DNA of 52,278 nucleotides, from assembly GCA_902793335.1 (NCBI GenBank), contig CADBCZ010000020.1, positions 1 to 52,278 on the forward strand. The letters run 5' to 3'. The notes beneath the pieces are model-generated. The model made no database searches. It was given only the letters and a program-made list of their open reading frames with translations, and was not told the DNA's origin. Of this stretch, positions 8,371 to 38,235 are shown piece by piece (within the stretch, counting starts at the first letter, position 1; the number at the start of each line of letters is the position of its first letter). This stretch comes from an uncultured Lachnospiraceae bacterium (GTDB lineage Bacteria > Bacillota > Clostridia > Lachnospirales > Lachnospiraceae). The translations under genes were made by a program, and so were the position numbers.

Positions 8371-10341
8371 ATGAATAATTTAGAAGAAACATATGATGCC
8401 ATAGTAATTGGAGCAGGTCATGCAGGATGTGAGGCAGCACTTGCATTGGCGAGAATGGAAATAGAAACTATTATATTTACTGTAAGTATGGACAGTGTAG
8501 CAATGATGCCATGTAATCCAAATATTGGTGGATCTTCCAAGGGACATCTTGTAAGAGAGATAGATGCTCTTGGTGGTGAAATGGGAAAAAATATAGATAA
8601 GACTTATATTCAGTCTAAGATGCTTAATAAATCTAAAGGTCCTGCTGTTCATTCACTTAGAGCTCAGGCTGATAAAGTTGAATATACAAAACAGATGAGA
8701 ATTACAATGCAAAATACTGATCATCTGACTTTAAGACAAGCTGAAGTTGCTGAAATTATTGTTGAAGAATGTGTTAATAATGAAAATTTAATTACGGATA
8801 AAATAGATAATAATTCAGAGAATATTGGCAATAATAAACGTAAAGTAGTTCGTGGTGTACGTACCAAATCAGGAGCAACATATTATGCAAAAGCTGTTGT
8901 TATTTGTACCGGAGTATACTTAAACGCAAGATGTATATATGGTGATGTTGTTAATCACACAGGTCCTAACGGTCTTTCTGCTGCTACATTTCTTTCAGAT
9001 TCATTAGAAAAGAGTGGTATTCCTGTAAGACGTTTCAAAACCGGAACTCCTGCAAGAATTGATAAGAGAAGTATTGATTTTTCAAAAATGGAAGAACAGT
9101 TTGGTGACGAAGATATTACTCCTTTTTCATTTACTAACAATGCAGAAGATATAAAGAGAGAACAGATTAGTTGTTGGCTTACATATACTAATGAAAAGAC
9201 TCATGATATTATTAGAGCAAATATTGACAGATCACCATTATTTTCAGGTGCTATTGAAGGTACAGGTCCTAGATATTGTCCTTCAATTGAAGATAAGGTT
9301 ATGAAGTTTGCTGATAAGAACAGACATCAGGTATTTATTGAACCGGAAGGTGAATTTACTAATGAAATGTATATTGGTGGTATGAGTTCGTCTTTACCGG
9401 AAGATGTTCAATATGCAATGTATAGAAGTGTTCCTGGTTTAGAGAATGCGAAGATTGTTAGAAATGCATATGCTATAGAGTATGATTGTATTAATGCATT
9501 AATGCTTAAGCATACTTTGGAATTTAAAGATATTGATGGATTATATAGTGCCGGTCAGATGAATGGAAGTTCAGGTTATGAAGAGGCCGGAGCTCAGGGT
9601 ATTATGGCAGGAATAAATGCTGCCAGAAAAATTCAGGGTAAGAAAGAAGTAGTTCTTGATAGATCACAGGGATATATAGGTGTACTTATAGATGATCTTG
9701 TTACAAAGGAAACAAAAGAACCATATAGAATGATGACTTCGAGAGCAGAATACAGATTACTTCTTCGTCAGGACAATGCAGATCTTAGATTAACTGACAT
9801 TGGTCATGATATTGGACTTATTTCTGATGAGAGATATGAGAAATTTTGTGGTAAGAGAAATCTTATAAACAGTGAAGTTAAACGTCTTAGTGAAACAATG
9901 GTTGGTGGTAATAAAAGAATTCAGGAATTCCTCGAATCAAAAAACAGTACTTCACTAAAGACTGCTGTTTCTCTTGCAGATTTAATTAAGCGACCTGAAC
10001 TTGACTATGATTCAATTGCTGAGATAGATAGTGAGAGAGAGTCTGTTAAATCTACTGAGTTATATGAGAATAATATTTCTAAAGATGTAATTAATCAGAT
10101 TAATATTGAGATTAAATATGAGGGATACATCAGTAGACAACGCTCACAGGTTGATCATTTCAAAAAATTAGAGGGTAAAAGAATACCTGATAATATTGAT
10201 TATGATGATGTTAAGAATCTTCGTAAGGAAGCAAGACAGAAGTTAAATGATATACGTCCCGAAAATATCGGACAGGCATCAAGAATTTCAGGTGTATCAC
10301 CTGCAGATATTTCGGTATTATTGATATATCTTGGACAATAA
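8371..10341 (+). CDS. mnmG: tRNA uridine-5-carboxymethylaminomethyl modification enzyme MnmG
   Basis: FAD-dependent partner of MnmE in wobble-uridine modification. The protein opens with the dinucleotide-binding motif [18 protein letters not shown] and carries [31 protein letters not shown] and [19 protein letters not shown], all typical of MnmG/GidA. The C-terminal helical domain (about 550-656) ends [16 protein letters not shown]. The ATG at 8371 has GGAG nine bases upstream; an in-frame ATG at 8356 would add five residues but has no such site. An Asn-rich insertion (about 140-160) is unusual. Full length, 656 aa. Confidence 0.96.
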
Positions 10342-10361
10342 TAAAATTAGAGGCGATTAAT

Positions 10362-10604
10362 TTGAATAAGTTATTTGTTATTCCTTCAATAATATTTTTT
10401 ATATTAGGGATAATAGGTTTAATTATTCCTATAGTACCACAGATACCGTTTTTTATTGTAAGTATATTATTTTTGGCTGCAGCTTCAGAGAAATTTAAAA
10501 GGTATATTATATCAACAAAAGTTTATAAGAAATATATTGAGAAATTTGTAAATAAACATGAGAAGCTTTCTGATATAATGAATGTTGATAATGATAAAAA
10601 TTAA
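10362..10604 (+). CDS. DUF454 (YbaN-like) small membrane protein
   Basis: 80-aa protein with two hydrophobic stretches, FVIPSIIFFILGIIGLIIPIVP and FFIVSILFLAAA, followed by a short basic soluble tail. The GxxGxxxPxxPxxPF pattern and the later FKRYI...YKKYIEKF region resemble the DUF454/YbaN family, whose function is unknown. It starts at TTG 10362 after an AGAGG site and sits 20 bases behind mnmG, so it is probably co-transcribed. Confidence 0.72.
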   Translation: MNKLFVIPSIIFFILGIIGLIIPIVPQIPFFIVSILFLAAASEKFKRYIISTKVYKKYIEKFVNKHEKLSDIMNVDNDKN

Positions 10605-10696
10605 TCTATGCATGTAGATAGAATAATATACTATAATGATTATACTGTAATGATAGTAAGATAATAAATATTTAAAACAAATAGACAGGATAAAGA

Positions 10697-11455
10697 ATGA
10701 TTATGGATAAATTAAAAAATCTTGCAAAGAATTATAATATAGAATTATCTGATAAACAGCTTGATATGTTTAGAAAGTATTATGAGATGCTTATAGAAAC
10801 TAATAAGGTTATGAATTTAACAGCTATTACAGAATTTGATGAAGTAATCACTAAACATTTTATTGATTCTTTATCTATTGCAGGTGTATATAGCGAAATA
10901 TTACAATATTCGGATGATAACAATGATGATAATAATGTGGATAATTCTATATTTAAATTGATTGATATAGGTACCGGAGCTGGTTTTCCCGGAATTCCTT
11001 TAAAGATAGCATTTCCTAAAATTGATGTAGTTCTTATGGATTCTTTAAATAAACGTGTGAAATTTTTAGAGAATGTAATTAATAAATTAGAGTTATCAAA
11101 TATTGTAGCAGTTCATGGAAGAGCAGAAGAGATGGCTCGTAATAAAGAGTATAGAGAATGTTTTGATTTATGTGTTAGTCGAGCTGTTGCTAATCTTTCA
11201 ACTTTGTCTGAATATTGTTTACCGTTTGTAAATATAAATGGTAAGTTTATATCATATAAAGCTTCTGATATTGAAGAAGAGGTAAATAATGCTAATAAAG
11301 CAATTACTACATTAGGTGGAAATTTAACCGAGGTTAAAAAGTTATCACTACCTGAAACAGATATAGAAAGAGCCTTTGTTATAATTGATAAAGTTAAAAA
11401 AACACCAAAGGTATACCCGCGTAAAGCAGGAACGGCTTCAAAAAATCCACTGTAA
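10697..11455 (+). CDS. rsmG: 16S rRNA (guanine527-N7)-methyltransferase RsmG
   Basis: Methylates G527 of 16S rRNA using S-adenosylmethionine. The SAM-binding loop LIDIGTGAGFPGIPLKIAFP and the family C-terminus YPRKAGTASKNPL are clear. There is an Asn/Asp-rich insertion (about 73-87, SDDNNDDNNVDNS) just before the SAM motif. An AGGA site precedes the ATG by 6 bases. 252 aa, slightly longer than typical because of the insertion. Last gene of the plus-strand block before a bidirectional terminator. Confidence 0.95.
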   Translation: MIMDKLKNLAKNYNIELSDKQLDMFRKYYEMLIETNKVMNLTAITEFDEVITKHFIDSLSIAGVYSEILQYSDDNNDDNNVDNSIFKLIDIGTGAGFPGIPLKIAFPKIDVVLMDSLNKRVKFLENVINKLELSNIVAVHGRAEEMARNKEYRECFDLCVSRAVANLSTLSEYCLPFVNINGKFISYKASDIEEEVNNANKAITTLGGNLTEVKKLSLPETDIERAFVIIDKVKKTPKVYPRKAGTASKNPL

Positions 11456-11483
11456 AATATAGAGTAAGCAATATAATTTAAAT

Positions 11484-11517
11484 AAAAAATACACTCATTG
11501 CAATGAGTGTATTTTTT
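11484..11517. terminator. bidirectional terminator between rsmG and the exonuclease gene
   Basis: A perfect palindrome: AAAAAATACACTCATTG followed immediately by CAATGAGTGTATTTTTT. It supplies a T run on both strands and lies between convergent genes; it overlaps the last codon of the minus-strand gene. Confidence 0.9.
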
Positions 11518-12475
11518 ATGAAGCATTTTGTTGCTTTTGATGACGCTTTTCTAATCGTCTTAATTGTAATTGTTTTTGTCTTACTTTGATTTTTTCGAAA
11601 TCTTTTTTACCGATTTTTTCAATTCTCTTTATAACAAATATTTCATCATACTTTGCCGGTTTAAACTTGATTTTTCCACACTGTAAACCATGTGTCCAAC
11701 ATCTACCAACACATACCTGATATGAATTATTAGAAAACCACTTTATTTTTGGTTTTAATTTTCTGCCGCATTTATAACAGTTCATTGATGAAACTTTACT
11801 ATCTTCCATAGCTGTTATCTTATCCGGAAATGTACGACTGATGTATTCAACATAATTGTTATGTTGAACTGTAATTTCTTCTTCCTCACATGTCGGATAG
11901 TGATAACAGTCAATGCTACACATATCAGATAATTTACGATGACTTATTTTTTGAAAAACCTTGGCAGTGTAATAGGCATCATTTTTTGCACAATGGAATT
12001 GGCCATCTACAGGTATTTTCATCTTCTCAACGGCTTTTTCCAAACTGAGATGAATATTAGAATCACCTAATTTGGTTTTTGCATATATCTCCTGAATATT
12101 ATAATATTTAAGAGGAGATGGCAGTTGATCAAAAAAATAGTAGTCCATATTCTGTTGTAGGTGAATCAGATCCAAAGTACCCCAGGTACAGAAAATGTAA
12201 TCCTCACCGCACCAGTTCTCAAATTCTTTATATACTTCCTCAAAAGGGCGTCCCGTTCTAAGTAGAGTTTCATCATAATTCAATAAATCTCTTATAGCCG
12301 GGTGTAAATGACGATGTAATCTCGGTTTAACAATACTTCCATATTGATCTACCAGATTAAAATTATCATCTAACTTGGCGGCACCTATTTCGATTACTTC
12401 AAATGGGAGATGCTTTGAATTTTTGCTGTCTTTTCGACCTTGGTTCCATTCAAGATCTAAAACTATGTAATTCAT
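11516..12475 (-). CDS. DEDDh-family 3'-5' exonuclease with C-terminal cysteine cluster
   Basis: 319-aa protein whose first 180 residues form an RNase T/DnaQ-type exonuclease domain: Exo I IVLDLEWN (D and E metal ligands), Exo II around TWGTLDLIHLQQNM, Exo III HCAKNDAYY (H-x4-D, so DEDDh class). After residue 230 a zinc-ribbon-like cluster is visible, CYKCGR ... CVGRCW ... LQCGK, then a Lys/Arg-rich tail suited to nucleic-acid binding. Substrate unknown; KapD-like or oligoribonuclease-like roles are possible. Good AGAGGAA site before the ATG. Confidence 0.8.
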   Translation of the reverse strand: MNYIVLDLEWNQGRKDSKNSKHLPFEVIEIGAAKLDDNFNLVDQYGSIVKPRLHRHLHPAIRDLLNYDETLLRTGRPFEEVYKEFENWCGEDYIFCTWGTLDLIHLQQNMDYYFFDQLPSPLKYYNIQEIYAKTKLGDSNIHLSLEKAVEKMKIPVDGQFHCAKNDAYYTAKVFQKISHRKLSDMCSIDCYHYPTCEEEEITVQHNNYVEYISRTFPDKITAMEDSKVSSMNCYKCGRKLKPKIKWFSNNSYQVCVGRCWTHGLQCGKIKFKPAKYDEIFVIKRIEKIGKKDFEKIKVRQKQLQLRRLEKRHQKQQNAS

Positions 12476-23305: not shown

Positions 23306-23319
23306 TTAACTGTAGTTAA
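23306..23319. repeat. TTAACTGTAGTTAA palindrome, copy 3
   Basis: One-base variant of the 14-mers at 13207 and 15843, here between two convergent genes and directly in front of the terminator hairpin. Confidence 0.4.
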
Positions 23320-23320
23320 A

Positions 23321-23358
23321 AAGTTCTCGTAAGCAAAAATGCTTATGAGAACTTTTTT
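23321..23358. terminator. bidirectional terminator between convergent genes
   Basis: AAGTTCTCGTAAGC and GCTTATGAGAACTT form a 14-bp stem (one G-T pair) with a 6-base loop, followed by TTTT on the plus strand and preceded by AAAAA, which gives U's on the minus strand. It separates the GGDEF gene from the kinase gene. Confidence 0.88.
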
Positions 23359-25066
23359 AGTTTCCGATATGTATGGTTGTGTAGCCATTGTCTTTTTTTG
23401 TGCCATTGACCTTATAGTTGTTTGTGTTATTGTCGGAAGCTTTATCTGACGAGTGATTGCTGCTTCCGGTGTTTGAAGTGGTGTTTGATGTATTGGATGA
23501 GAAGTTATTATCGGTTGCATTAGCAGGAGAGGTTGTATCAGAAGAAACCTCTGTATCTCCAAGACTGACAGTTAGTGTGATGGATGATATATTTCCTTTT
23601 GTAAACTGTGTATCGGGCTTAATGCTTTGCGCGATTACGACACCTCTTTCATATTCTTTATTTGGTTCTTTTAGGATTTCGATTTCTATATCGGAATCTA
23701 TGGACTGTAAATCATAACGTGCAACGGTTATATTCTTCCCGACCATATTGACCATGGTTAATATTTCGGTGCTTTGTGGTGTGTTGGTGCTATTAATATC
23801 AGATTTGTAATTGTTATCAGAGTTTGTATTATCTGTTCTTGACTCAAAATTGTATACTTCTGTATGATCAATAGTATCGTATGTTGTGCGTTTATAATCA
23901 GATTGTGTGTCTGTAATCAGACCGGGTCGTAACTTCATTATACCGGCAATTATAATCAAGGGTATTATTATTATGAGAGAAACGGATAATATTTTGAATT
24001 TGATGTTAGCGTGTTTAATGTTGACAGCAGGAGGTTTGTGCCTATCGTTTTCTGTATCATTTATATGTATCTGTGTTATTCTATCATCCTGTGGTGTAGT
24101 TGTGAGTGCACCGACAAATAGGCTTATTGAAGGATATCGTTCTCCTACGTGTAGTGACAACGCTTTGATAATGCTCTGAATCTGATAAGGCATAATTCCT
24201 TCAACACAATTGAGGTTAGATATAATTTCTTCCTGTGAATTATTCTCCTGCATTCGTAACAGAGCATCAGGTGGCGTAATGCCGGTTAGGGAATAATAAA
24301 TAGTTGCGCTGATACCATATACATCTGTCCAGGGTCCAATCTTACCGTTTGGAGAATATTGTTCGGGAGGAGCATATCCGGCTTTGAGTATTACTGTGTA
24401 GGTTTTTGATTCATTGAGATTGCTGTGATTGGCTGACCCAAAATCAATCAAATGAAGACGATTATCCATACCTATTATGATATTGTCGGGGCTGATATCA
24501 CGGTGAACGAGTCCTCTTTGATGAATAGTTGAAAGGTCTGAAAGTAGTGGGCGAAACAGTGTGAGCAATTCAGTAAAAGGCATTGCTCCGTCTGTTCCTA
24601 CCAAATTTTTGAGTGTAAGACCTTCTATATACTCCATCACAATATAGGTTGTGTTGTTGGCATCAAAGATATCAATTACGGATACAATGCTGTCTAAGTT
24701 GTAAAACTCCTTGAGTAGATATGCTTCCTGTCTGAATCGTTCAAGACCTTTTTTGAAGCTAACGGATAGTTTTCCGTCAAAGTGTGTGACATAGTAAGGA
24801 TTATCACCATGCATTTTCCTTGCTGCGATACCTGACGGATAGTATTCCTTGATAGCAACAAAAGTCGGATGTGCAGTATCCATGGAAGATAGATTATTTG
24901 AAGCAGAGTATGATGAAGAGGCATCGATTTGTGCATTATCTGATAAAATACGCGTAGCTTTGTAAGTGACACCAAAACCACCCTCGCCAAGAACACTTTC
25001 TATATGATAGCGAGAATTTAATTCATATCCAATTGGAAGTGTGTGCGAAAGTTTGTCACTTGTCAT
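23357..25066 (-). CDS. membrane Ser/Thr protein kinase with one PASTA domain
   Basis: 569-aa Hanks-type kinase. Gly-rich loop LGEGGFGVTYKA (about 25-36), a Ser/Asn-rich insertion, catalytic Lys in VAIKEYYP, catalytic loop VHRDISPDNIII, LIDFGSAN (DFG), and AGYAPPEQY in the activation segment. One transmembrane helix (ILSVSLIIIIPLIIIAG, about 370-390) leads to an outside region with a single PASTA-like domain (about 440-505) and an Asn/Ser-rich tail. Start ATG 25066 has GGAAGGAG 8 bases upstream; the 14 codons further upstream overlap the FHA gene. Last gene of the four-gene signalling cluster; the partner phosphatase is not in the window. Confidence 0.9.
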   Translation of the reverse strand: MTSDKLSHTLPIGYELNSRYHIESVLGEGGFGVTYKATRILSDNAQIDASSSYSASNNLSSMDTAHPTFVAIKEYYPSGIAARKMHGDNPYYVTHFDGKLSVSFKKGLERFRQEAYLLKEFYNLDSIVSVIDIFDANNTTYIVMEYIEGLTLKNLVGTDGAMPFTELLTLFRPLLSDLSTIHQRGLVHRDISPDNIIIGMDNRLHLIDFGSANHSNLNESKTYTVILKAGYAPPEQYSPNGKIGPWTDVYGISATIYYSLTGITPPDALLRMQENNSQEEIISNLNCVEGIMPYQIQSIIKALSLHVGERYPSISLFVGALTTTPQDDRITQIHINDTENDRHKPPAVNIKHANIKFKILSVSLIIIIPLIIIAGIMKLRPGLITDTQSDYKRTTYDTIDHTEVYNFESRTDNTNSDNNYKSDINSTNTPQSTEILTMVNMVGKNITVARYDLQSIDSDIEIEILKEPNKEYERGVVIAQSIKPDTQFTKGNISSITLTVSLGDTEVSSDTTSPANATDNNFSSNTSNTTSNTGSSNHSSDKASDNNTNNYKVNGTKKDNGYTTIHIGN

Positions 25067-25070
25067 CAGT

Positions 25071-25592
25071 CTACTCCTTCCATACAAAGTCCTTACCGCA
25101 TAGTGCAATGAAAATAAATGTCATCGAACCAATTTTAATACGGTCTCGGTCATTTAATATTGTTGAACTATTATTAATAGTTGAACCATTAATAGATACA
25201 GCGTTAGCGTCTTGATTGACATCAATAGAATACTGTATCTTTTGATTATCATAACATATTTTTGCATGTATATATCTGCTGATTTCTTTATCGTTTGGTA
25301 GAGTTATATCCATGTTGGCACCACGACCTATTGTGTTATCGCCTACATGAAGGGGAAATTCTTTTCCATATTCTGCACCCTCAATACAAACCAGCCATCC
25401 AACCGGCTTATGATCTTTTATGAGGTTAAATGATTCAACAGGTCTTATAATTGTGTCGGTGTTGATGTCATGCTGATTGGTGTCCGGTATATCTATATTA
25501 TCTTTGTTTGTTTTACGATTGGCACATTCAGGACAACTCGGATAGTGATCAGCATTGTATATGTGATTGTTTGGACATTTAACAAGATTCAT
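25071..25592 (-). CDS. zinc-ribbon plus FHA domain protein
   Basis: 173 aa. The N-terminus CPNNHIYNADHYPSCPEC has two CxxC/CxxN-type pairs typical of a short zinc ribbon. The C-terminal half (about 68-165) is an FHA domain: NTIGRGANMDITLPNDKEISRYIHAKI (IGR and S-x-x-H class residues, here SRYIH) and INGSTINNSSTILNDRDRIKIG. FHA domains bind phosphothreonine, so it is a likely substrate or adaptor of the kinase encoded 4 bases downstream. Good GGAG site before the ATG. Confidence 0.87.
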   Translation of the reverse strand: MNLVKCPNNHIYNADHYPSCPECANRKTNKDNIDIPDTNQHDINTDTIIRPVESFNLIKDHKPVGWLVCIEGAEYGKEFPLHVGDNTIGRGANMDITLPNDKEISRYIHAKICYDNQKIQYSIDVNQDANAVSINGSTINNSSTILNDRDRIKIGSMTFIFIALCGKDFVWKE

Positions 25593-25679
25593 GATAAATA
25601 CTCCTATTATAAAAATGTAATGATAATATGAGAATTAAGAAACAATAAAATACAAAAGTGCATAATGATTTGCTACAAT

Positions 25680-26420
25680 TCATATCAATCTATATTGCAG
25701 GGATATATCTCCAAAACAAATGACAGATCCGGAAGAAGCTGTGTAGATTTTATCCGGAGTTAATTTTTCTGCGGTGCCATTTTCTTTGATAATATATGTT
25801 CCATTATGAGAGTAATCTTTTATCTCATATGTATCTATTCCGTTATAACGTATATCACAATGAGATCGGCTGATATAGGGAAGATTAATTATAATCTCGC
25901 TTGATTGGTTGTCACGACCTATCTTACATATAACATTGGGATACATTCTTATAACTGAACCTAAGTATTCTCCTTTGATACACACCATTGCACCAATAGT
26001 GTATCTTAACTTATGTTTATTATCGGATATCTGAGGCTTATCAAACAAATCTATAATGGTTCGTCTATAACGTTCACTGACAGGTATTTCTTTATTGTTT
26101 ACGTAAAGATGATTGTTTTTGTAATGTGTTTTTGCAGTGACAGAAACAAGAAAGCTTTGATGACAGCGCACAAATCCGTATGGAATAAGTATATCTGTAA
26201 GTTCCGACAACTTACCATAAAAGCACAGGTCTATTGAATCATTTTCATCAAAGAAATTGGAAACATGTGGCTTGGTCCTTTTGTTTGTATAAATGTAGCA
26301 TTTACGTTCTCTGCTTTCAATATATAAAATTTCTTTTACCGGTATCTGATAGTGACCGCTTCTGTAAGAATAATGAAGAAGCGGTTTGCTTAATTCTGAG
26401 GAGTTGATATGTACGTTCAT
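25680..26420 (-). CDS. LytTR DNA-binding domain fused to FHA domain
   Basis: 246 aa. Residues 15-125 match a LytTR DNA-binding domain: VKEILYIESRERKCYIYT, FYGKLSELTDIL, YGFVRCHQSFLVSV and IPVSERYRR. The remainder (about 145-246) is an FHA domain: CKIGRDNQSSEIIINLPYISRSHCDI and DYSHNGTYI. No receiver domain is present. The fusion suggests a transcription factor whose activity depends on binding phosphothreonine, supplied by the nearby kinase. AAGGAG lies before the ATG. The operator-like repeats at 28953-29010, in front of the cluster, are a candidate target. Confidence 0.88.
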   Translation of the reverse strand: MNVHINSSELSKPLLHYSYRSGHYQIPVKEILYIESRERKCYIYTNKRTKPHVSNFFDENDSIDLCFYGKLSELTDILIPYGFVRCHQSFLVSVTAKTHYKNNHLYVNNKEIPVSERYRRTIIDLFDKPQISDNKHKLRYTIGAMVCIKGEYLGSVIRMYPNVICKIGRDNQSSEIIINLPYISRSHCDIRYNGIDTYEIKDYSHNGTYIIKENGTAEKLTPDKIYTASSGSVICFGDISLQYRLI

Positions 26421-26459
26421 CGTATTTTTCTCCTTTGTTTTTTCTTACTCCCAATTATA

Positions 26460-28901
26460 TTATTTGCTCGCTTTATTGATAAGCCGAGCATATTTCGAAA
26501 CCATCTTATTAGGAACTAATATATTTACCGAATGAGGTACGCCCTTAAATGTATGATCGCCTATTTTATTCAATTTACTGCCTTTGAATTTGATATTCTT
26601 AAGATTTTTATCATTATACAATACTTTGTTTCCAAGTTTGTTTACGTTCTTTCCAAAAGTAATATTTTTAAGTTTTGGACATTTCATAAATGCGCGATTA
26701 CCTATAACAACAACATTCTTTCCGATAGTAACGGTTTGTAATTTCTTATATCCTGCACAGGCGTCAGATGCAATTTTATTGACTTTATATTTTTTCTTGT
26801 TGATCTTTACTGTTGCGGGAACAGAGACTTTGGTGCAAGAGTTTTTCTTTGGACGAAGATAAGTCGCGGTCTTGCTTCCTGTAATCCTGTAGTAGGCGTT
26901 TCCAACAAGATATTTATCTGATTGTATTTCCTTGCTTGATGTACGACTATTCTGTGAAAGGTTACCTGTTTGATTATCGGTATCAGATAAGCTGGTGTCT
27001 TGTTGTTGGCTATTATTTGGTGGGTTGGAGTTGTCAGTGTTGCTGCCCGGATTATTGTTAACGACAGTATTGGTGTTGCCTGTTTTATTGTCCGGATCAG
27101 TATTGATGCTGTCGGAATCCGGGTTCGAAATCGTCGACGAGGATTTGATTATTGCAAAATTAACTGCGGTTGAATTAGTAAAGGGGCCGATTCCTGTAAT
27201 TATGACGGTTGCAGTTCCAATATCCACGTTATTATTATACTCTAAGGTATAATCGAAATTCTCTTTCAATGGAATTGCTTGATCATCATCATTATATGTG
27301 ACAGTACATTCAGGAGTTATGGCATTTCCTGTGTATACATAGGAAGTTGATTTAATGGTTATGGTCAATTCGTTAATGTCTACCGGTTCTCTTGCGTCAA
27401 TATATGAGTAACTAAATTCTTTACAATAATCGATTTGTGCGTCTGTGGCGCAGTAGACAATACTTTTCCCCGCTTTGATATTCTCATCATCTCCGAAGGC
27501 ATAATTACTTATGTTGGTAAGCGACTCAGGGAGGATTATACGTCCGGAAGAAAAGGCAGTTCTTCCAATAGTCGTTAATGACTTGGGAAGGACAACTGTA
27601 TCTATCATTTCACAGCGATTAAATGCATTTTCTCCGATAGACACTATTGAATCCGGAAGCTTTATGTCGGATATATTATTGCAATTGCCAAATGCGCTTT
27701 TGCCCAATGTTTTGAGACCTGAAGGAAGCTTGACGGAAGTTAGCAAACCACAATCTGAAAATGCATTATCTTCTATGGATTCTACAGAATCGGGAATGGT
27801 AATTGTACTTAAATTACAATACTGAAATGCACCATTTTCAATCTTGGTTACAGATGATGGGATGGTGATATCAGTAAGTCCCGAACATCCTGAAAAAAGT
27901 CCCGGTGATATGGTGGTTAAAGATTCCGGTATATGTATTTCAGAAATGTTAGAACACATGTGGAAAGCGCCGTTATCAATCTGGGTAACACTATCGGGAA
28001 TGTAGATATTGTTAAGTTTGCTACAATCGTCAAAAGCGAGACAACCTATAAATGTAAGACTGTCGGGAAATGTTATTGTTTTGAGATCTGTACATCCGGT
28101 AAAGCATTGCCCCTCTATTCTTTCGAGTTTGGGATTGAAATTAACTGTGGTTAAACTTGTACATCCTGTGAAGGTACAACTTCCTGTGGTCAGAGACTGT
28201 ATGTTGACTTTTTTCAATTCTGTGCACGAAGAAAACGCCCAGTAATCTATGAAACTGACATTTTGGGGAATGGTTATTTCACGGATGCTTGTGCATCCGG
28301 AAAAGGCAGACTCACCTATAAATGATAAACTATCAGGCAGAGTCAGGTCTTCTATGGAAGAACATCCAAAAAAGGCGTTGTTTTTAATTGTAGTCAGATT
28401 GTCAGATAATCTGACATCAGATAAATTACTGTTGCCTGCTAAAGAAAATGATCCTATTGATGTGACAGAATCTGCCATGGTAAGCTCTGTCATTTTATCA
28501 TACACAAAGAAGGCATAGTCACCAATAGTTGTAACACCGTCATTTAATATTACTTTTTTGACAAGTGACGGGTTGAGTATGTCTGTTGAAATCATTTGAT
28601 TATCTATCTCATTTTTGTCAATCATTTTACCGGAACCGGAAATGGTAAGAGTTCCGTTTTCAAAACTCCATTTGACATTTGAACCGTCACCTTCTGCTCC
28701 GCAGTTGCCGGAAAGTTCTGTGGACTCTTTGTTTATAAACACTTCTGCATCTGATGATTCGAAGGCATGACTGGTGAACCGTGCGGGACCATTTATACAT
28801 ATAAAAATTAAAAATAATAATATAGTGGTAATAATTGATATATGATTAGTAATATTGATTCGGGATATAGACTTGTTTGAAAAACAGATTCGGCTAGTCA
28901 T
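26460..28901 (-). CDS. BspA-like leucine-rich-repeat surface protein
   Basis: 813-aa exported protein: N-terminal hydrophobic segment (about 18-42), the BspA-type entry GNCGAEGDGSNVKWSFENGTLTISGSG, then about fifteen LRR_5 repeats (about 105-480, pattern LPDSLTFIGxxAFxxCxxL), one beta-sandwich repeat (about 525-590, YTGNAITPECTVTYNDD), a Ser/Asn/Asp-rich linker (590-665) and a second LRR_5 block to the end. No LPXTG motif is visible. Such proteins mediate adhesion or sensing at the cell surface. It is the first gene of the minus-strand signalling cluster, with GAGGAA before the ATG. Confidence 0.87.
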   Translation of the reverse strand: MTSRICFSNKSISRINITNHISIITTILLFLIFICINGPARFTSHAFESSDAEVFINKESTELSGNCGAEGDGSNVKWSFENGTLTISGSGKMIDKNEIDNQMISTDILNPSLVKKVILNDGVTTIGDYAFFVYDKMTELTMADSVTSIGSFSLAGNSNLSDVRLSDNLTTIKNNAFFGCSSIEDLTLPDSLSFIGESAFSGCTSIREITIPQNVSFIDYWAFSSCTELKKVNIQSLTTGSCTFTGCTSLTTVNFNPKLERIEGQCFTGCTDLKTITFPDSLTFIGCLAFDDCSKLNNIYIPDSVTQIDNGAFHMCSNISEIHIPESLTTISPGLFSGCSGLTDITIPSSVTKIENGAFQYCNLSTITIPDSVESIEDNAFSDCGLLTSVKLPSGLKTLGKSAFGNCNNISDIKLPDSIVSIGENAFNRCEMIDTVVLPKSLTTIGRTAFSSGRIILPESLTNISNYAFGDDENIKAGKSIVYCATDAQIDYCKEFSYSYIDAREPVDINELTITIKSTSYVYTGNAITPECTVTYNDDDQAIPLKENFDYTLEYNNNVDIGTATVIITGIGPFTNSTAVNFAIIKSSSTISNPDSDSINTDPDNKTGNTNTVVNNNPGSNTDNSNPPNNSQQQDTSLSDTDNQTGNLSQNSRTSSKEIQSDKYLVGNAYYRITGSKTATYLRPKKNSCTKVSVPATVKINKKKYKVNKIASDACAGYKKLQTVTIGKNVVVIGNRAFMKCPKLKNITFGKNVNKLGNKVLYNDKNLKNIKFKGSKLNKIGDHTFKGVPHSVNILVPNKMVSKYARLINKASK

Positions 28902-28952
28902 ATTGGTTTCCTCTTGATATTGAAAAACGATTGATTTGTTACATCTGAAACC

Positions 28953-29010
28953 GGTTATAACTTTGAAATTCGGTTATAACTTATTGTTTCATTTATAACT
29001 GGTTATAACT
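28953..29010. promoter_or_regulatory. four GTTATAAC-like operator sites upstream of the signalling cluster
   Basis: GGTTATAACT occurs at 28953-28962, 28972-28981 and 29001-29010, with a variant ATTTATAACT at 28991-29000. Starts are 19, 19 and 10 bases apart, about two, two and one DNA turns. The core GTTATAAC is itself an 8-bp palindrome. Position 50-110 bases upstream of the BspA-like start suits a transcription-factor operator; the LytTR-FHA protein encoded in the same cluster is the obvious candidate (inference). Confidence 0.65.
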
Positions 29011-29051
29011 TTTGATTTCAGTGTAAATCACAGAAATTGAAAAGTCAACAT

Positions 29052-29077
29052 TAGTTATTACAACTCAAAGCGTGTTA
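29052..29077. repeat. left 26-bp direct repeat flanking the thiamine cassette
   Basis: Begins TTAGTTATTACAACTC and ends AAAGCGTGTT; matches 34501-34526 at 25 of 26 positions. Same orientation, 5.4 kb apart, enclosing exactly the thi genes, riboswitch, promoter and terminator. Confidence 0.8.
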
Positions 29078-29142: not shown

Positions 29143-29168
29143 AAAAAGCCCTGGCAAAAACCAGGGCT
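29143..29168 (-). terminator. terminator of the thi operon
   Basis: On the minus strand AGCCCTGG-tttttg-CCAGGGCT is followed by TTTTCTTTT. It lies about 40 bases after the thiC stop. Confidence 0.9.
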
Positions 29169-34500: not shown

Positions 34501-34526
34501 TTAATTATTACAACTCAAAGCGTGTT
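34501..34526. repeat. right 26-bp direct repeat flanking the thiamine cassette
   Basis: Partner of 29052-29077 with a single G/A difference. It lies just outside the thi promoter. Confidence 0.8.
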
Positions 34527-34718
34527 TATTACAAGTATATTTTATTGGAAATAGATATGTGATATGTATAAATCAGGCTATGTAATACCAGGTTTTTCTG
34601 TCTTAAAATAGGAAATTCGGATAGGCAATTCTGATAGGAAATTTACCTATGTAAAATACATCTGAAAATTACATTTTGTTTGCCATAAAAGGTGAATGGT
34701 AAAATAAGGAATATAAAA

Positions 34719-35051
34719 TTGAGAACGATGAAAAATTTAGAACAAAATACGACGTTAATAGGTCAAACGAAAGATGAGGGCATGGGGGATTTGAATACTA
34801 AAAATGATAACAAGAAGTATATATCTGTGTATGAAGAAATCGCTCAGGTTCTATCTAATCCGGCAGATGTTGAACGTGTATATGAACTGCTTAAAGGACA
34901 GACAGTTTCATTCCCACAGAAACTATATTCTAAGGAGTATATGAAGGAATATATCAACAGAAATTATGGTAATGAAACTGCCAGAGAAATAGCGAGCGTG
35001 TTAGGAATAAGTGATAGGAGGGTGAGACAGATAGCGAAAGAGAGAGAGTAG
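34719..35051 (+). CDS. Mor-like helix-turn-helix protein
   Basis: About 110 aa. The middle (ISVYEEIAQVLSNPADVERVYELLKGQTVSFPQKLYSKEYMKEYI, shown in part) and the C-terminal helix-turn-helix (ETAREIASVLGISDRRVRQIAKE) resemble the Mor/C transcription-activator family common in phages and mobile elements. Start uncertain: the TTG at 34719 has AAGGA eight bases upstream; ATG 34728 and GTG 34692 are alternatives. Possibly regulates the surface-protein gene that follows, or is a phage remnant. Confidence 0.6.
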   Translation: MRTMKNLEQNTTLIGQTKDEGMGDLNTKNDNKKYISVYEEIAQVLSNPADVERVYELLKGQTVSFPQKLYSKEYMKEYINRNYGNETAREIASVLGISDRRVRQIAKERE

Positions 35052-35115
35052 GTGTAGGGTAAAGTTTTTTCTGTTTATGGTGGGTTTGAAAATAGAATAT
35101 TGGAGGTGTTGGGTT

Positions 35116-38100
35116 ATGTTAAGAAAAAAGAACTTTTTTATTGTTTTGGCTTTTTTAATGTGCTTTTGTTTTTTGAACATTTTTTTTATCCAGACATATG
35201 CTGCTGGTTCTGGCTATTGTGGTGTTGGAGATAACTATGAAAACGTTAGTTGGAGCTATGATGACGAGAAAAAAATACTCATATTTTCAGGAAATGGTGA
35301 TATTGAAACATCGGAATCATTTCCCTGGACAAAATATAAAAGTGCAACAGATAAAATAGTTGTTGAGGATGGCATAACATCTATTCCTAATGGGGCATTT
35401 CAATTCTTTACAGCGACGGAAGTTGAGTTGGGAAATACTCTAACAGATATAGGCGATTATTCATTTTATTCAAGTAAGATTAAAACCGTAAGGATACCGG
35501 GAAGTGTAAAAAAAATAAATAATGGAGCATTTGGAAGTTGTAATGAATTAAAGTATGTCTATATTGAGGAAGGTGTAGAACAAATAGGAGAAGACTCATT
35601 CAGCGGTGTTGGAGATGGGAATACCGTGGACACAATCTATGATCTTCCGTCAACAATTACATCAATTCATGGAAAAGCATTTGGATCTATTACAAGAGAA
35701 GTTGCAACAGTATACGGAAAAAATGATTGTTCAAAAGATTTTTTTGAAGATCTTGATCCTGTATATGTTGATGCTACAACAGCGTTGGATTTTACAAAAG
35801 TCGAATCAGCTTTCGATGAAGATTACTATGAATATACGGGAGAGGCTATCACTCCATTACCTACTATTACTTACGCAGTAGATGAAACACAAACAGTTAC
35901 ATTATATGAGGGATTTGATTATTCTCTTTCATACAAAGACAATGTTAATAAAGGATTAGCTACAATTACCTTGACGGGCTTAGGTAATTATGACGGTCAA
36001 AAAGAAATCAATTTTAATATTGCAACGGGATTATCAAAATGTGAAATAGAATTGGAAGAAGATCCGGTTCTATATGATGGAACAGCAAAAACACCTGCGG
36101 TAAAAGTTACCTATGAAAATAATGAGCTGGAAGCAGGCAAAGATTATGAGGTTGAATACAAAGATAATGTTGATGAGGGTGTAGCTACTGCTGTTGTTAA
36201 AGGTAAAGGATTATTCGGTGGAACGGTAGAAGCGAGTTTCACAATAAGCAGGTTTAGTATTGATGGCAATGTTGACTGCGTTGCGGAATATGACAAGGTT
36301 CTCTATGACGGAACTGAGAAGAAGCCGGGTTTCACGCTGACTTATAATAATGGAAAGGTTTTGGAACTTAATAAGGATTATACGATCACTTATGAAAATA
36401 ATGTTGAAGAGGGTACTGCTCAAGTTACTTTTACAGGAATAGGTAGTTATACAGGTGTTTGCTATAACAGTTTTGAGATATACAAATATAGTTTGGAACA
36501 GTGCGATGTCATTTTAGATCTGGAAGATGAAAGAACATTATATGATGGAACAGAGAAGAAGCCGGGTGTTACGGTAAAATACGGTGATACGGTAATTGAT
36601 AGTAGCAATTACGATGTTCTGTATGAAAACAACATTGAAGAAGGTACAGCAAATGTAACAGTTACCGGAAAGAATAGTTGCAGAGATAGCCGTATGGTAG
36701 ATTTTACCATCTATAAAAATGATTTTAATTCTGAAGAACTTAAGGTCGAACTGGAATATCAGAAGATATTATATGATGGAACGGCTAAGTGTCCTAAGAT
36801 ATCAGTGAAATATGAGGATAAACAACTTGAAGAAGGTACGAATTACACAGTTGATTATTCTAATAATACTGAAATGGGTACGGCAAATGTATTTGTAACA
36901 GGTATTGGAAGCTACAAAGGAACGGTTAATAAAACTTTTTCTATTTATAAAAATGATATAAATTTAGCTACGGTTAAATTACCATACGCAGAAGTGCTGT
37001 ATGATGGAAATCCAAAGGAACCAGAGATTTCTGTTAAGTTTGATGGAACAGATCTTGTAAAAGATAAAGATTATTCTATTACATATAAAGATAATGTTGA
37101 TGTTGGTAAAGCAACTGTTACGATTACGGGTAAAGGAAGCTTTAAGGAAGAGATTAATAAAGAATTTTCAATTTATAAATATGATTTGACTAAGGCTGAC
37201 ATTTCTCAATCATATGCTGTGGTTTTGTATGACGGAAATGCAAAGTTACCGGATATTACTGTTAAATATGAGAGTAGGGAAATGGTTAAAGATACGGATT
37301 ATACTATTGAAGTATCAAATAACATCAATCCCGGTGTTGTGACATTGAAGATAGTTGGGATTAATCAGTATGCCGGAATTGTTGAGAAGCAGTTTGAAAT
37401 TAAAGGATTATCCATTGAAAATGCAGATGTGTTGCTAAAGGAAAGCATATACAGTTACGACGGTTCTTCAAAGACTCCTACTGTTGAGGTAAAGCTTGGT
37501 GATAAGATACTGGTTAAAGATACAGATTATACTGTTGCTTACGAGAATAATATAAATGATGGTACAGCTCACGTTGTTGTGACAGGAACCGGCATTTATA
37601 CAGATGTGGTAAAAGCAAGTTTTATAATCCTTCCATACAATGCAGGAATGGATTCAGTATATCCGGAAGGCACACTGATAGACGGTGATTTTGCTTATGG
37701 TGTTACGGATGATGAGAAAAATGAAGTAGAGCTTTTCTGCCCGGCAAGCCAGAATGTAAAGAATATTCAAATTCCGGCAACGATAACTGACGAGAATGGT
37801 TCAGTTTACACTGTAACATCTATCGGAAATAAGGCATTCTATAAGAACACAAAGATTACCGGTGTAACGATAGCAAATACTGTTAAGAGTATTGAGGATT
37901 ACGCTTTCTATGGTTGTAAAAATATTAAGACAATCAAGATGGGTAGTGGGGTTGAGTTGATCGGTAATTCAGCATTTAGAAAGTGTACCAAACTTACAAG
38001 TATTATTCTTCCTAAATCATTGGATCAGCTTGGTAAGAATGTATTCTATGGTTGTAGCAAACTTAAGACAATTACCATTAATGCTAAGAGTGTTGTTGAT

Positions 38101-38235
38101 ATCAAGGCTAATGCAATTAAGGGTATTTCTAAGAAGGTTGTTATCAAGGTTCCTAGTAAACTTGTGAAAAAGTATAAGAAGGAGTTTGATAAGAAGTCAG
38201 GATTTAAAGGAGGGATGAAGGTTAAGAAGAAGTGA
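35116..38235 (+). CDS. giant BspA-like surface protein with eight tandem beta repeats
   Basis: About 1039 aa. Signal peptide (MLRKKNFFIVLAFLMCFCF..., about 1-32), the same entry motif as the 26.5-kb surface protein (CGVGDNYENVSWSYD), a short LRR_5 block (about 80-190), then eight repeats of about 76-80 aa (roughly 240-850), each starting YDG[TNS]xKxP and containing DYxxxYxNNxxxGTAxVxxTGxGxY. A C-terminal LRR_5 block ends the protein; the Lys-rich tail could bind wall polymers. GGAGGT lies 9 bases before the ATG. The repeats resemble Ig-like/MBG-type stalk modules; probable adhesin. Confidence 0.85.
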   Translation: MLRKKNFFIVLAFLMCFCFLNIFFIQTYAAGSGYCGVGDNYENVSWSYDDEKKILIFSGNGDIETSESFPWTKYKSATDKIVVEDGITSIPNGAFQFFTATEVELGNTLTDIGDYSFYSSKIKTVRIPGSVKKINNGAFGSCNELKYVYIEEGVEQIGEDSFSGVGDGNTVDTIYDLPSTITSIHGKAFGSITREVATVYGKNDCSKDFFEDLDPVYVDATTALDFTKVESAFDEDYYEYTGEAITPLPTITYAVDETQTVTLYEGFDYSLSYKDNVNKGLATITLTGLGNYDGQKEINFNIATGLSKCEIELEEDPVLYDGTAKTPAVKVTYENNELEAGKDYEVEYKDNVDEGVATAVVKGKGLFGGTVEASFTISRFSIDGNVDCVAEYDKVLYDGTEKKPGFTLTYNNGKVLELNKDYTITYENNVEEGTAQVTFTGIGSYTGVCYNSFEIYKYSLEQCDVILDLEDERTLYDGTEKKPGVTVKYGDTVIDSSNYDVLYENNIEEGTANVTVTGKNSCRDSRMVDFTIYKNDFNSEELKVELEYQKILYDGTAKCPKISVKYEDKQLEEGTNYTVDYSNNTEMGTANVFVTGIGSYKGTVNKTFSIYKNDINLATVKLPYAEVLYDGNPKEPEISVKFDGTDLVKDKDYSITYKDNVDVGKATVTITGKGSFKEEINKEFSIYKYDLTKADISQSYAVVLYDGNAKLPDITVKYESREMVKDTDYTIEVSNNINPGVVTLKIVGINQYAGIVEKQFEIKGLSIENADVLLKESIYSYDGSSKTPTVEVKLGDKILVKDTDYTVAYENNINDGTAHVVVTGTGIYTDVVKASFIILPYNAGMDSVYPEGTLIDGDFAYGVTDDEKNEVELFCPASQNVKNIQIPATITDENGSVYTVTSIGNKAFYKNTKITGVTIANTVKSIEDYAFYGCKNIKTIKMGSGVELIGNSAFRKCTKLTSIILPKSLDQLGKNVFYGCSKLKTITINAKSVVDIKANAIKGISKKVVIKVPSKLVKKYKKEFDKKSGFKGGMKVKKK

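Follow-up and report, generated by a model that had tools for sequence, protein, structure and literature searches.

How might a kinase at the cell surface of a gut-type bacterium be connected to a promoter when the genes for the whole route seem to lie side by side? This question is raised by four genes in a stretch of 52,278 nucleotides from an uncultured Lachnospiraceae bacterium (hereafter the window), whose contig (C20) is part of a 3.6 Mb genome in 157 contigs. The initial annotation had described four same-strand genes with gaps of 4-90 bases. The ORF list and Pfam confirm that all four are real and lie on the minus strand, in the transcription order LRR_5 protein, LytTR-FHA regulator, zinc-ribbon FHA protein (ZnR-FHA) and kinase, with measured gaps of 39, 87 and 4 bases (Table 1). 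The span given for them, 23357..29010, is right for the genes, but its last part (28902-29010) is promoter and leader and holds no gene. The unit is flanked by terminator-like signals on both sides, the thiC site upstream and a hairpin 3' of the kinase. The cluster had also been called self-contained, which fits the transcription unit but perhaps not its targets, since the best operator-like pair of the genome lies ~5.4 kb away, 5' of another LRR_5 gene.

Table 1. Features of the four-gene unit and its surroundings, in window coordinates
Feature	Position	Strand	Evidence or remark
Terminator-like hairpin after the kinase gene	23318..23357	-	fold z -7.64
One-TM Ser/Thr kinase, one PASTA domain, 569 aa from ATG 25066	23357..25066	-	Pfam
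Zinc-ribbon FHA protein (ZnR-FHA), 173 aa, conserved linker Thr45	25071..25592	-	FHA 4.4e-9
LytTR-FHA transcription regulator, 246 aa, without receiver	25680..26420	-	Pfam LytTR 1.9e-12, FHA 1.1e-12
BspA-type LRR_5 protein, first gene of the unit, 813 aa	26460..28901	-	LRR_5 E 3.4e-111
Three exact AGTTATAACC copies (palindrome GTTATAAC) in the operon leader	28953..29010	-	tandem pattern only here in the 3.6 Mb genome
Promoter-like TTGACT-17-TACACT	29020..29048	-	sigma-70 type, 5' of the first gene
21-base element ending in a half-site (TGTAATAAC, 29062-29054)	29055..29075	-	5 bp upstream of the -35 region
thiC terminator-like site	29147..29168	-	marks the unit's upstream limit
Perfect TTGTAATAA-12 bp-TTGTAATAA direct repeat, thi / second-LRR_5 intergenic	34505..34534	.	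only exact pair of the pattern in the genome
Second LRR_5 surface-type protein, possible target	35077..38235	+	LRR_5 2.9e-49

The four genes are conserved together, as judged against control loci, and the grouping proposed in the initial annotation survived this test, which could have refuted it. Domain maps and Pfam identified the full set at nine loci in eight genomes: the window, contig C13 of the same genome (L024), G286 (L058), G147 (L060), G686 (L072), a Roseburia MAG (L078, with the LRR gene truncated at a contig end), L079, L080 and L084. At L081, three of the four are present before the contig ends. The LRR_5 gene lies upstream in the window and in G147, and on the opposite strand in C13, L058, L072, L078, L079, L080 and L084. 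Eighteen fused LytTR-FHA loci were compared with 24 loci of plain LytTR regulators, with L077 (the same as L072) and L105 (the same as L059) each counted once. Within 7 kb, a kinase-profile match was found at 13 of the 18 fused loci and 2 of the 24 controls, ZnR-FHA at 12 and none, and LRR at 10 and none. The profiles were derived in part from these cases, and each of the 10 cases positive for LRR also matched LRR_5 in Pfam. Only about eight of these 24 controls carry a title that places them in Lachnospiraceae; for one no group is named, and two (L091 and L094) are part of ZnR-kinase clusters. A further control, made up of 30 loci of three kb from the family (24 from the scan of family genomes and 6 from the window's own genome), contained two kinase, two FHA and no LRR matches within the locus, compared with 10, 13 and 4 of the 18 cases within 1.6 kb. 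Its two positives are an FHA match at L047 and an apparent split LytTR/FHA pair at L040.

A nearby kinase match was absent at 5 of the 18 loci (L062, L082, L085, L063 and L059). L062 and L082 are truncated by contig ends, with the LRR gene still visible at L082, and L085, on a 5 kb contig, has none of the three partner genes. WXG100-like genes surround the regulator at L063, and a kinase lies ~16 kb away. Counted among the 13 kinase-positive loci is L083, where a gene (742-1890) near the LytTR-FHA gene matches the kinase profile only in part, and Pfam finds in it PASTA (3.4e-11) but no kinase domain. Two of these neighborhoods differ in other ways. The LytTR-FHA protein of L063 (9362-10492) has a degenerate receiver and sits amid genes, WXG100-like by eye, of what is perhaps a type VII secretion locus, and at L059 an exported M14 peptidase (9901-12282) stands beside LytTR-FHA in place of the LRR_5 gene.

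Profile searches of the window's own genome gave 7 FHA, 12 LytTR and 8 kinase matches, including two more LytTR-FHA proteins, on contigs C13 and C14, which are also beside kinase and FHA genes. C13 has LytTR-FHA, ZnR-FHA and kinase genes with an LRR_5 gene on the opposite strand, and C14 has two ZnR-kinases, an FHA protein, a plain LytTR regulator and a LytTR-FHA protein whose receiver is degenerate. The second ZnR-kinase of C14 (L025:8012-9499) reads HRNISPE versus HRDISPD and is likely a pseudokinase beside an active-looking one. In wider scans, with family, order and phylum samples that overlap and at most five candidates scored per genome, an alignment of the three proteins of the window's genome gave listed matches over both LytTR and FHA in 6 of 397 family genomes, that genome among them; in G040 the match spans a stop, i.e., two adjacent genes. 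The order scan, made with an 8-row alignment, gave two-domain matches in 2 of 392 genomes, again including the window's own, and a third covering the FHA part only, and the phylum scan gave one in 398, namely the window's own. G188, of the same genus, had no LytTR-FHA match in the family or order scan. A contig scan with a single protein as query returned no match; a second contig scan returned at least 80 loci, of which 30 were mapped. Estimates of dN/dS were 0.05-0.2 in seven of nine gene pairs, and are rough since dS exceeded 1 in all nine and was saturated in the other two.

The first gene carries the LRR_5 repeats that mark BspA-type proteins, and its product is predicted to be exported from a hydrophobic N terminus read by eye; no LPXTG-type anchor was seen by eye in this protein. 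The kinase ORF was listed as 23357-25108, for which the ATG at 25066 is the better start. The longer ORF matches Pkinase (9.1e-29) and a single PASTA domain (1.6e-6) and has one transmembrane stretch by eye. The residues K73, E114, D190, N195 and D208 are intact and fall in invariant columns of five sequences, and the activation-loop T224 is likewise invariant in five kinases. PASTA is absent from 4 of the 10 compact-set kinases scanned, and the AF2 model of the kinase (pLDDT 45.7) was too poor for use. That the unit is a housekeeping PASTA-kinase locus was considered and rejected, as its kinase scored 147.8 bits against the Stk1/PknB model NF033483, for which the cut-off is 450. The best of the eight kinase matches in the genome, at 191 bits, is on another contig.

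The regulator is modeled by AF2 as two well-folded domains with a loose linker (pLDDT 81, pTM 0.46). The top 50 Foldseek matches are FHA domains or FHA-bearing entries, with ComE from rank 37 down. In its FHA domain, all 12 aligned rows share R169, S204 and N206, and 10 of them also have S184. Compared with a LytTR response regulator, the window protein has the LytTR domain, including the fold match to ComE, and lacks a receiver with its Asp. Among the 18 fused proteins, seven receivers keep the phospho-acceptor Asp (and also the Lys), four are degenerate, and seven proteins, including that of the window, have none; one of the first seven, the receiver of L082, has no acidic pair. The initial annotation had the route operating without a response regulator, which is misleading: 11 of the 18 fused proteins retain a receiver in intact or degenerate form, so the window protein resembles a response regulator from which this domain has been lost.

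In the LytTR tree, the window protein pairs with that of G147 (89/90) and the C13 protein with that of L085 (98/88), so the window and C13 proteins are not recent duplicates of each other; support in this tree is weak, with 4 of 29 inner branches starred, and the row RR_L025_9859 duplicates C14. Repeated loss of the receiver among LytTR-FHA proteins is a suggestion of this analysis (supports 89/90). At L061 and L086-L089, a REC-LytTR gene is followed by a separate and directly adjacent FHA gene, which as a gene-fusion sign hints at joint function. It is tentatively possible, although we would lean against it if pressed, that the family was rewired from His-Asp to Ser/Thr control: a REC-LytTR gene would have fused with the neighboring FHA gene, passed through a stage of dual aspartyl and threonyl reading, and lost or degraded its receiver more than once, leaving in the window a LytTR switch for surface proteins under purely Ser/Thr control. 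Two other arrangements were seen among these loci. L040 is another apparent split pair of LytTR and FHA genes, with a kinase alongside, and the L061 cluster contains an ABC transporter with two FHA matches (9923-12211) as well as a kinase-FHA fusion, a PP2C phosphatase and several ZnR-FHA proteins.

The ribbon of ZnR-FHA, read by eye, is C-x3-H...CPEC. Its linker (alignment columns of window residues 24-64) varies freely among 10 compact-set members with a mean pairwise identity of 0.45, and the only positions shared by all 10 are Q40 and T45. By eye, Q-x-x-V-E-T is also present in two of five ZnR-FHA proteins from larger clusters (L064 and L086). Its FHA domain, also read by eye, retains GR and SR..H but lacks the usual SxNGT loop, so ZnR-FHA may serve as the partner that is phosphorylated and not as the reader. 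A short ZnR protein resembling the ZnR-FHA N terminus, without FHA, lies just 3' of LytTR-FHA at L090 (8365-8568), with a matching stretch behind the LytTR-FHA gene of L025.

From the domains and synteny observed here we infer a signaling path, and we consider the chances evenly balanced that the cluster is a dedicated Ser/Thr-phosphosignaling operon of the Lachnospiraceae type that controls BspA-type surface proteins, running from the kinase through pThr45 and LytTR-FHA to surface-protein promoters. The one-TM kinase would sense an envelope signal through its outer part and would then phosphorylate the conserved Thr45 in the ZnR-FHA linker, much as PknG acts on an N-terminal Thr of GarA/OdhI. 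Through its canonical FHA pocket, LytTR-FHA would read pThr45 and assemble regulator molecules in place of a receiver, a domain that is present, decayed or absent among relatives. The GarA/OdhI switch is described as an FHA domain with a phosphorylated Thr in the region N-terminal to it (PMC8546545), to which the conserved T45 before the FHA domain would correspond. ZnR-FHA differs in having a zinc ribbon and an adjoining regulator gene, and it scores 19.5 against the GarA/OdhI family model NF041660, below the cut-off of 200.

A search of the open-access literature found no paper with LytTR together with FHA or forkhead-associated, and among the papers listed by broader searches none describes this architecture in its title or the opening of its abstract. 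The closest precedents are EmbR-PknH and StkP-ComE, and these and the LytTR Regulatory Systems each share part of the design. The genes for EmbR and PknH are adjacent. ComE is not known to carry an FHA domain, nor StkP to be encoded next to it, whereas here the LytTR regulator has an FHA domain and the kinase is encoded alongside. In Streptococcus pneumoniae, StkP-ComE is described as a LytTR regulator under Ser/Thr kinase control (PMC6010298), and EmbR of Mycobacterium tuberculosis as a transcription factor with a C-terminal FHA domain that is under a Ser/Thr kinase and acts on envelope genes (PMC4601284). The window regulator shares with EmbR the C-terminal FHA on a DNA-binding protein and the neighboring membrane Ser/Thr kinase. 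EmbR, however, is OmpR-type with a BTA domain, whereas in the window LytTR stands in place of the OmpR/SARP and BTA domains, many relatives have REC, and ZnR-FHA and LRR_5 genes are present as well. HdrRM and BrsRM, as LytTR Regulatory Systems, are likewise described as having a receiver-less LytTR regulator and autoregulation via repeats 12 bp apart, but theirs is placed under a membrane inhibitor protein, with no FHA part in that description (PMC6193735). No such inhibitor gene is beside the window regulator, whose neighbors are LRR_5, FHA and kinase genes.

The EmbR precedent could also be taken more literally. LytTR-FHA would then dock through its FHA domain on the autophosphorylated kinase and itself be phosphorylated, which would raise its DNA affinity, and ZnR-FHA would be a separate substrate or scaffold. 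Phosphorylation of EmbR by PknH requires the EmbR FHA domain, according to PMC4601284, and StkP is described as phosphorylating the LytTR regulator ComE with an increase in DNA binding (PMC6010298); the invariance of T224 in the activation loop also favors this route. The ZnR-FHA gene, however, accompanies the regulator nearly as often as the kinase does (12 versus 13 of 18) and its product has an invariant Thr, and we consider this direct route unlikely, if still a serious competitor to the route through pThr45.

For the route through pThr45, the last step would be the binding of the LytTR domain to 9-12-9 direct repeats beside its own operon promoter and those of LRR_5 genes; such repeats occur in three relatives and partly in the window. 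Published LytTR repeats are described as mostly 12 bp apart and often 10 bp 5' of the -35 region (PMC6193735). In G686 and the Roseburia MAG the gene for the regulator is preceded, at a distance of 79-100 bp, by a TGTAAGAAT-12-TGTAAGAAT repeat, and so it is in L081, where the repeat is one base off and in the other orientation. The window's own operon has the half-site only, with the full pair ~5.4 kb away. The sequence at 29055-29075 is identical to 34505-34525 over 21 bases, which include the spacer and one half-site, and no such identity arose in 100 shuffles. The distant pair ends 10 bp before a weak plus-strand promoter-like TTGGAA-16-TATAAA of the second LRR_5 gene, which is tied with a candidate 24 bp off; this placement is the one favored by published LytTR repeats. 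The pair reads opposite to that gene, with a 119-aa ORF (34692-35051) between them, and it could equally serve thi as well as the second LRR_5 gene, the thi -35 region being 32 bp away.

In a direct-repeat search of 30 upstream regions, four regions had a best pair that none of 60 shuffles equalled: the window leader (AAGTTATAACC, period 19), G686 and the Roseburia MAG (with ATGTAAGAATT at period 21 in each), and the L084 LRR gene (10/11 bases, period 26, a different sequence). The half-site TGTAAGAAT occurred in 30 pairs at period 21, defining sites included, which stands out, since every other period between 12 and 32 gave 7 to 22. The pattern TGTAAKAA-N13-TGTAAKAA has six exact places in ten genomes, three of which helped define the motif, with K chosen with the window in view. 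In three genomes the place is 5' of the LytTR-FHA gene; the others are in the window, in the interval separating thi from the second LRR_5 gene, 5' of an LRR_5 gene (1.2e-13) in the genome of L079, and near a contig end. Counts were close to those of a reversed control, at 28 versus 26 places with up to one mismatch in the ten genomes and 35 exact matches in 387 genomes versus 31, by hand count, for the control; significance by number alone was therefore rejected, and only position supports the pattern. Among the six family genomes with regulator matches, the exact pair occurs in two, in one of which (G330) it is inside an ORF. One-mismatch places, including one at the G686 kinase promoter, were not counted as evidence, as many are inside ORFs and some, by eye, in LRR-coding repeats. 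No intergenic pair with up to two mismatches was found at C13, C14, G286, G147 or L084. The leader of the window operon folds better than all 200 shuffles (z -3.41). Its GTTATAAC palindromes were rejected as a LytTR operator, as they are spaced in steps of 10, 19 and 19 bases (variant copy counted) and lie downstream of the promoter; in no relative's upstream region are they the best repeat.

The repeats in the window might instead belong to another regulator, of the WalR type or a different LytTR protein, with LytTR-FHA acting elsewhere. WalR-type half-sites read TGTWAH with a period of 11, and TGTAAT fits this half-site. The pattern is not enriched by number, and the genome has 12 LytTR matches from which another regulator could come. 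Of 29 background loci examined, 12 were intergenic; Pfam found LRR_5 in none of the 10 ORFs beside intergenic background matches, and 4 of these 10 (L193, L194, L206 and L210) are three NlpC/P60 genes and one cell-wall hydrolase gene, perhaps the cell-wall regulon of another regulator. The period of 21 nevertheless departs from the 11 of WalR, and TGTAAG, a sequence incompatible with the WalR half-site, is present in the repeats of G686, the Roseburia MAG and L081, which sit at the regulator's own promoter. We consider this explanation improbable.

T7SSc-j clusters, described as containing kinases, PPM phosphatases and FHA proteins (PMC11217815), are comparable kinase/FHA neighborhoods in Bacillota, but the ORF list of the window from 17 to 36 kb contains by eye no secretion ATPase or WXG100-like ORF. 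The module might be an anti-phage system, or else a leftover or adjunct of larger clusters, either ZnR-kinase/FHA/PP2C ones or those for type VII secretion, but this seems to us very improbable: related regulators do occur in such clusters (L061, L086-L089 and L063), kinases and FHA proteins are known from T7SS loci (PMC11217815) and the PADLOC model PD-T4-6 matches the kinase at 8e-40, but dN/dS is low, eight genomes share the compact set, PADLOC gave no match at E 0.001 for any of the other three genes, and PD-T4-6 is probably a generic kinase match here.

If the reading through pThr45 is true, the unit would be a membrane-to-promoter Ser/Thr circuit of Lachnospiraceae-type bacteria with every part encoded in one operon. 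Stages on the way from His-Asp to Ser/Thr control of a single regulator are apparently still visible among living relatives. The circuit would also offer an account of how some BspA-type surface proteins may be switched, with a named Thr, an FHA pocket and a candidate operator.
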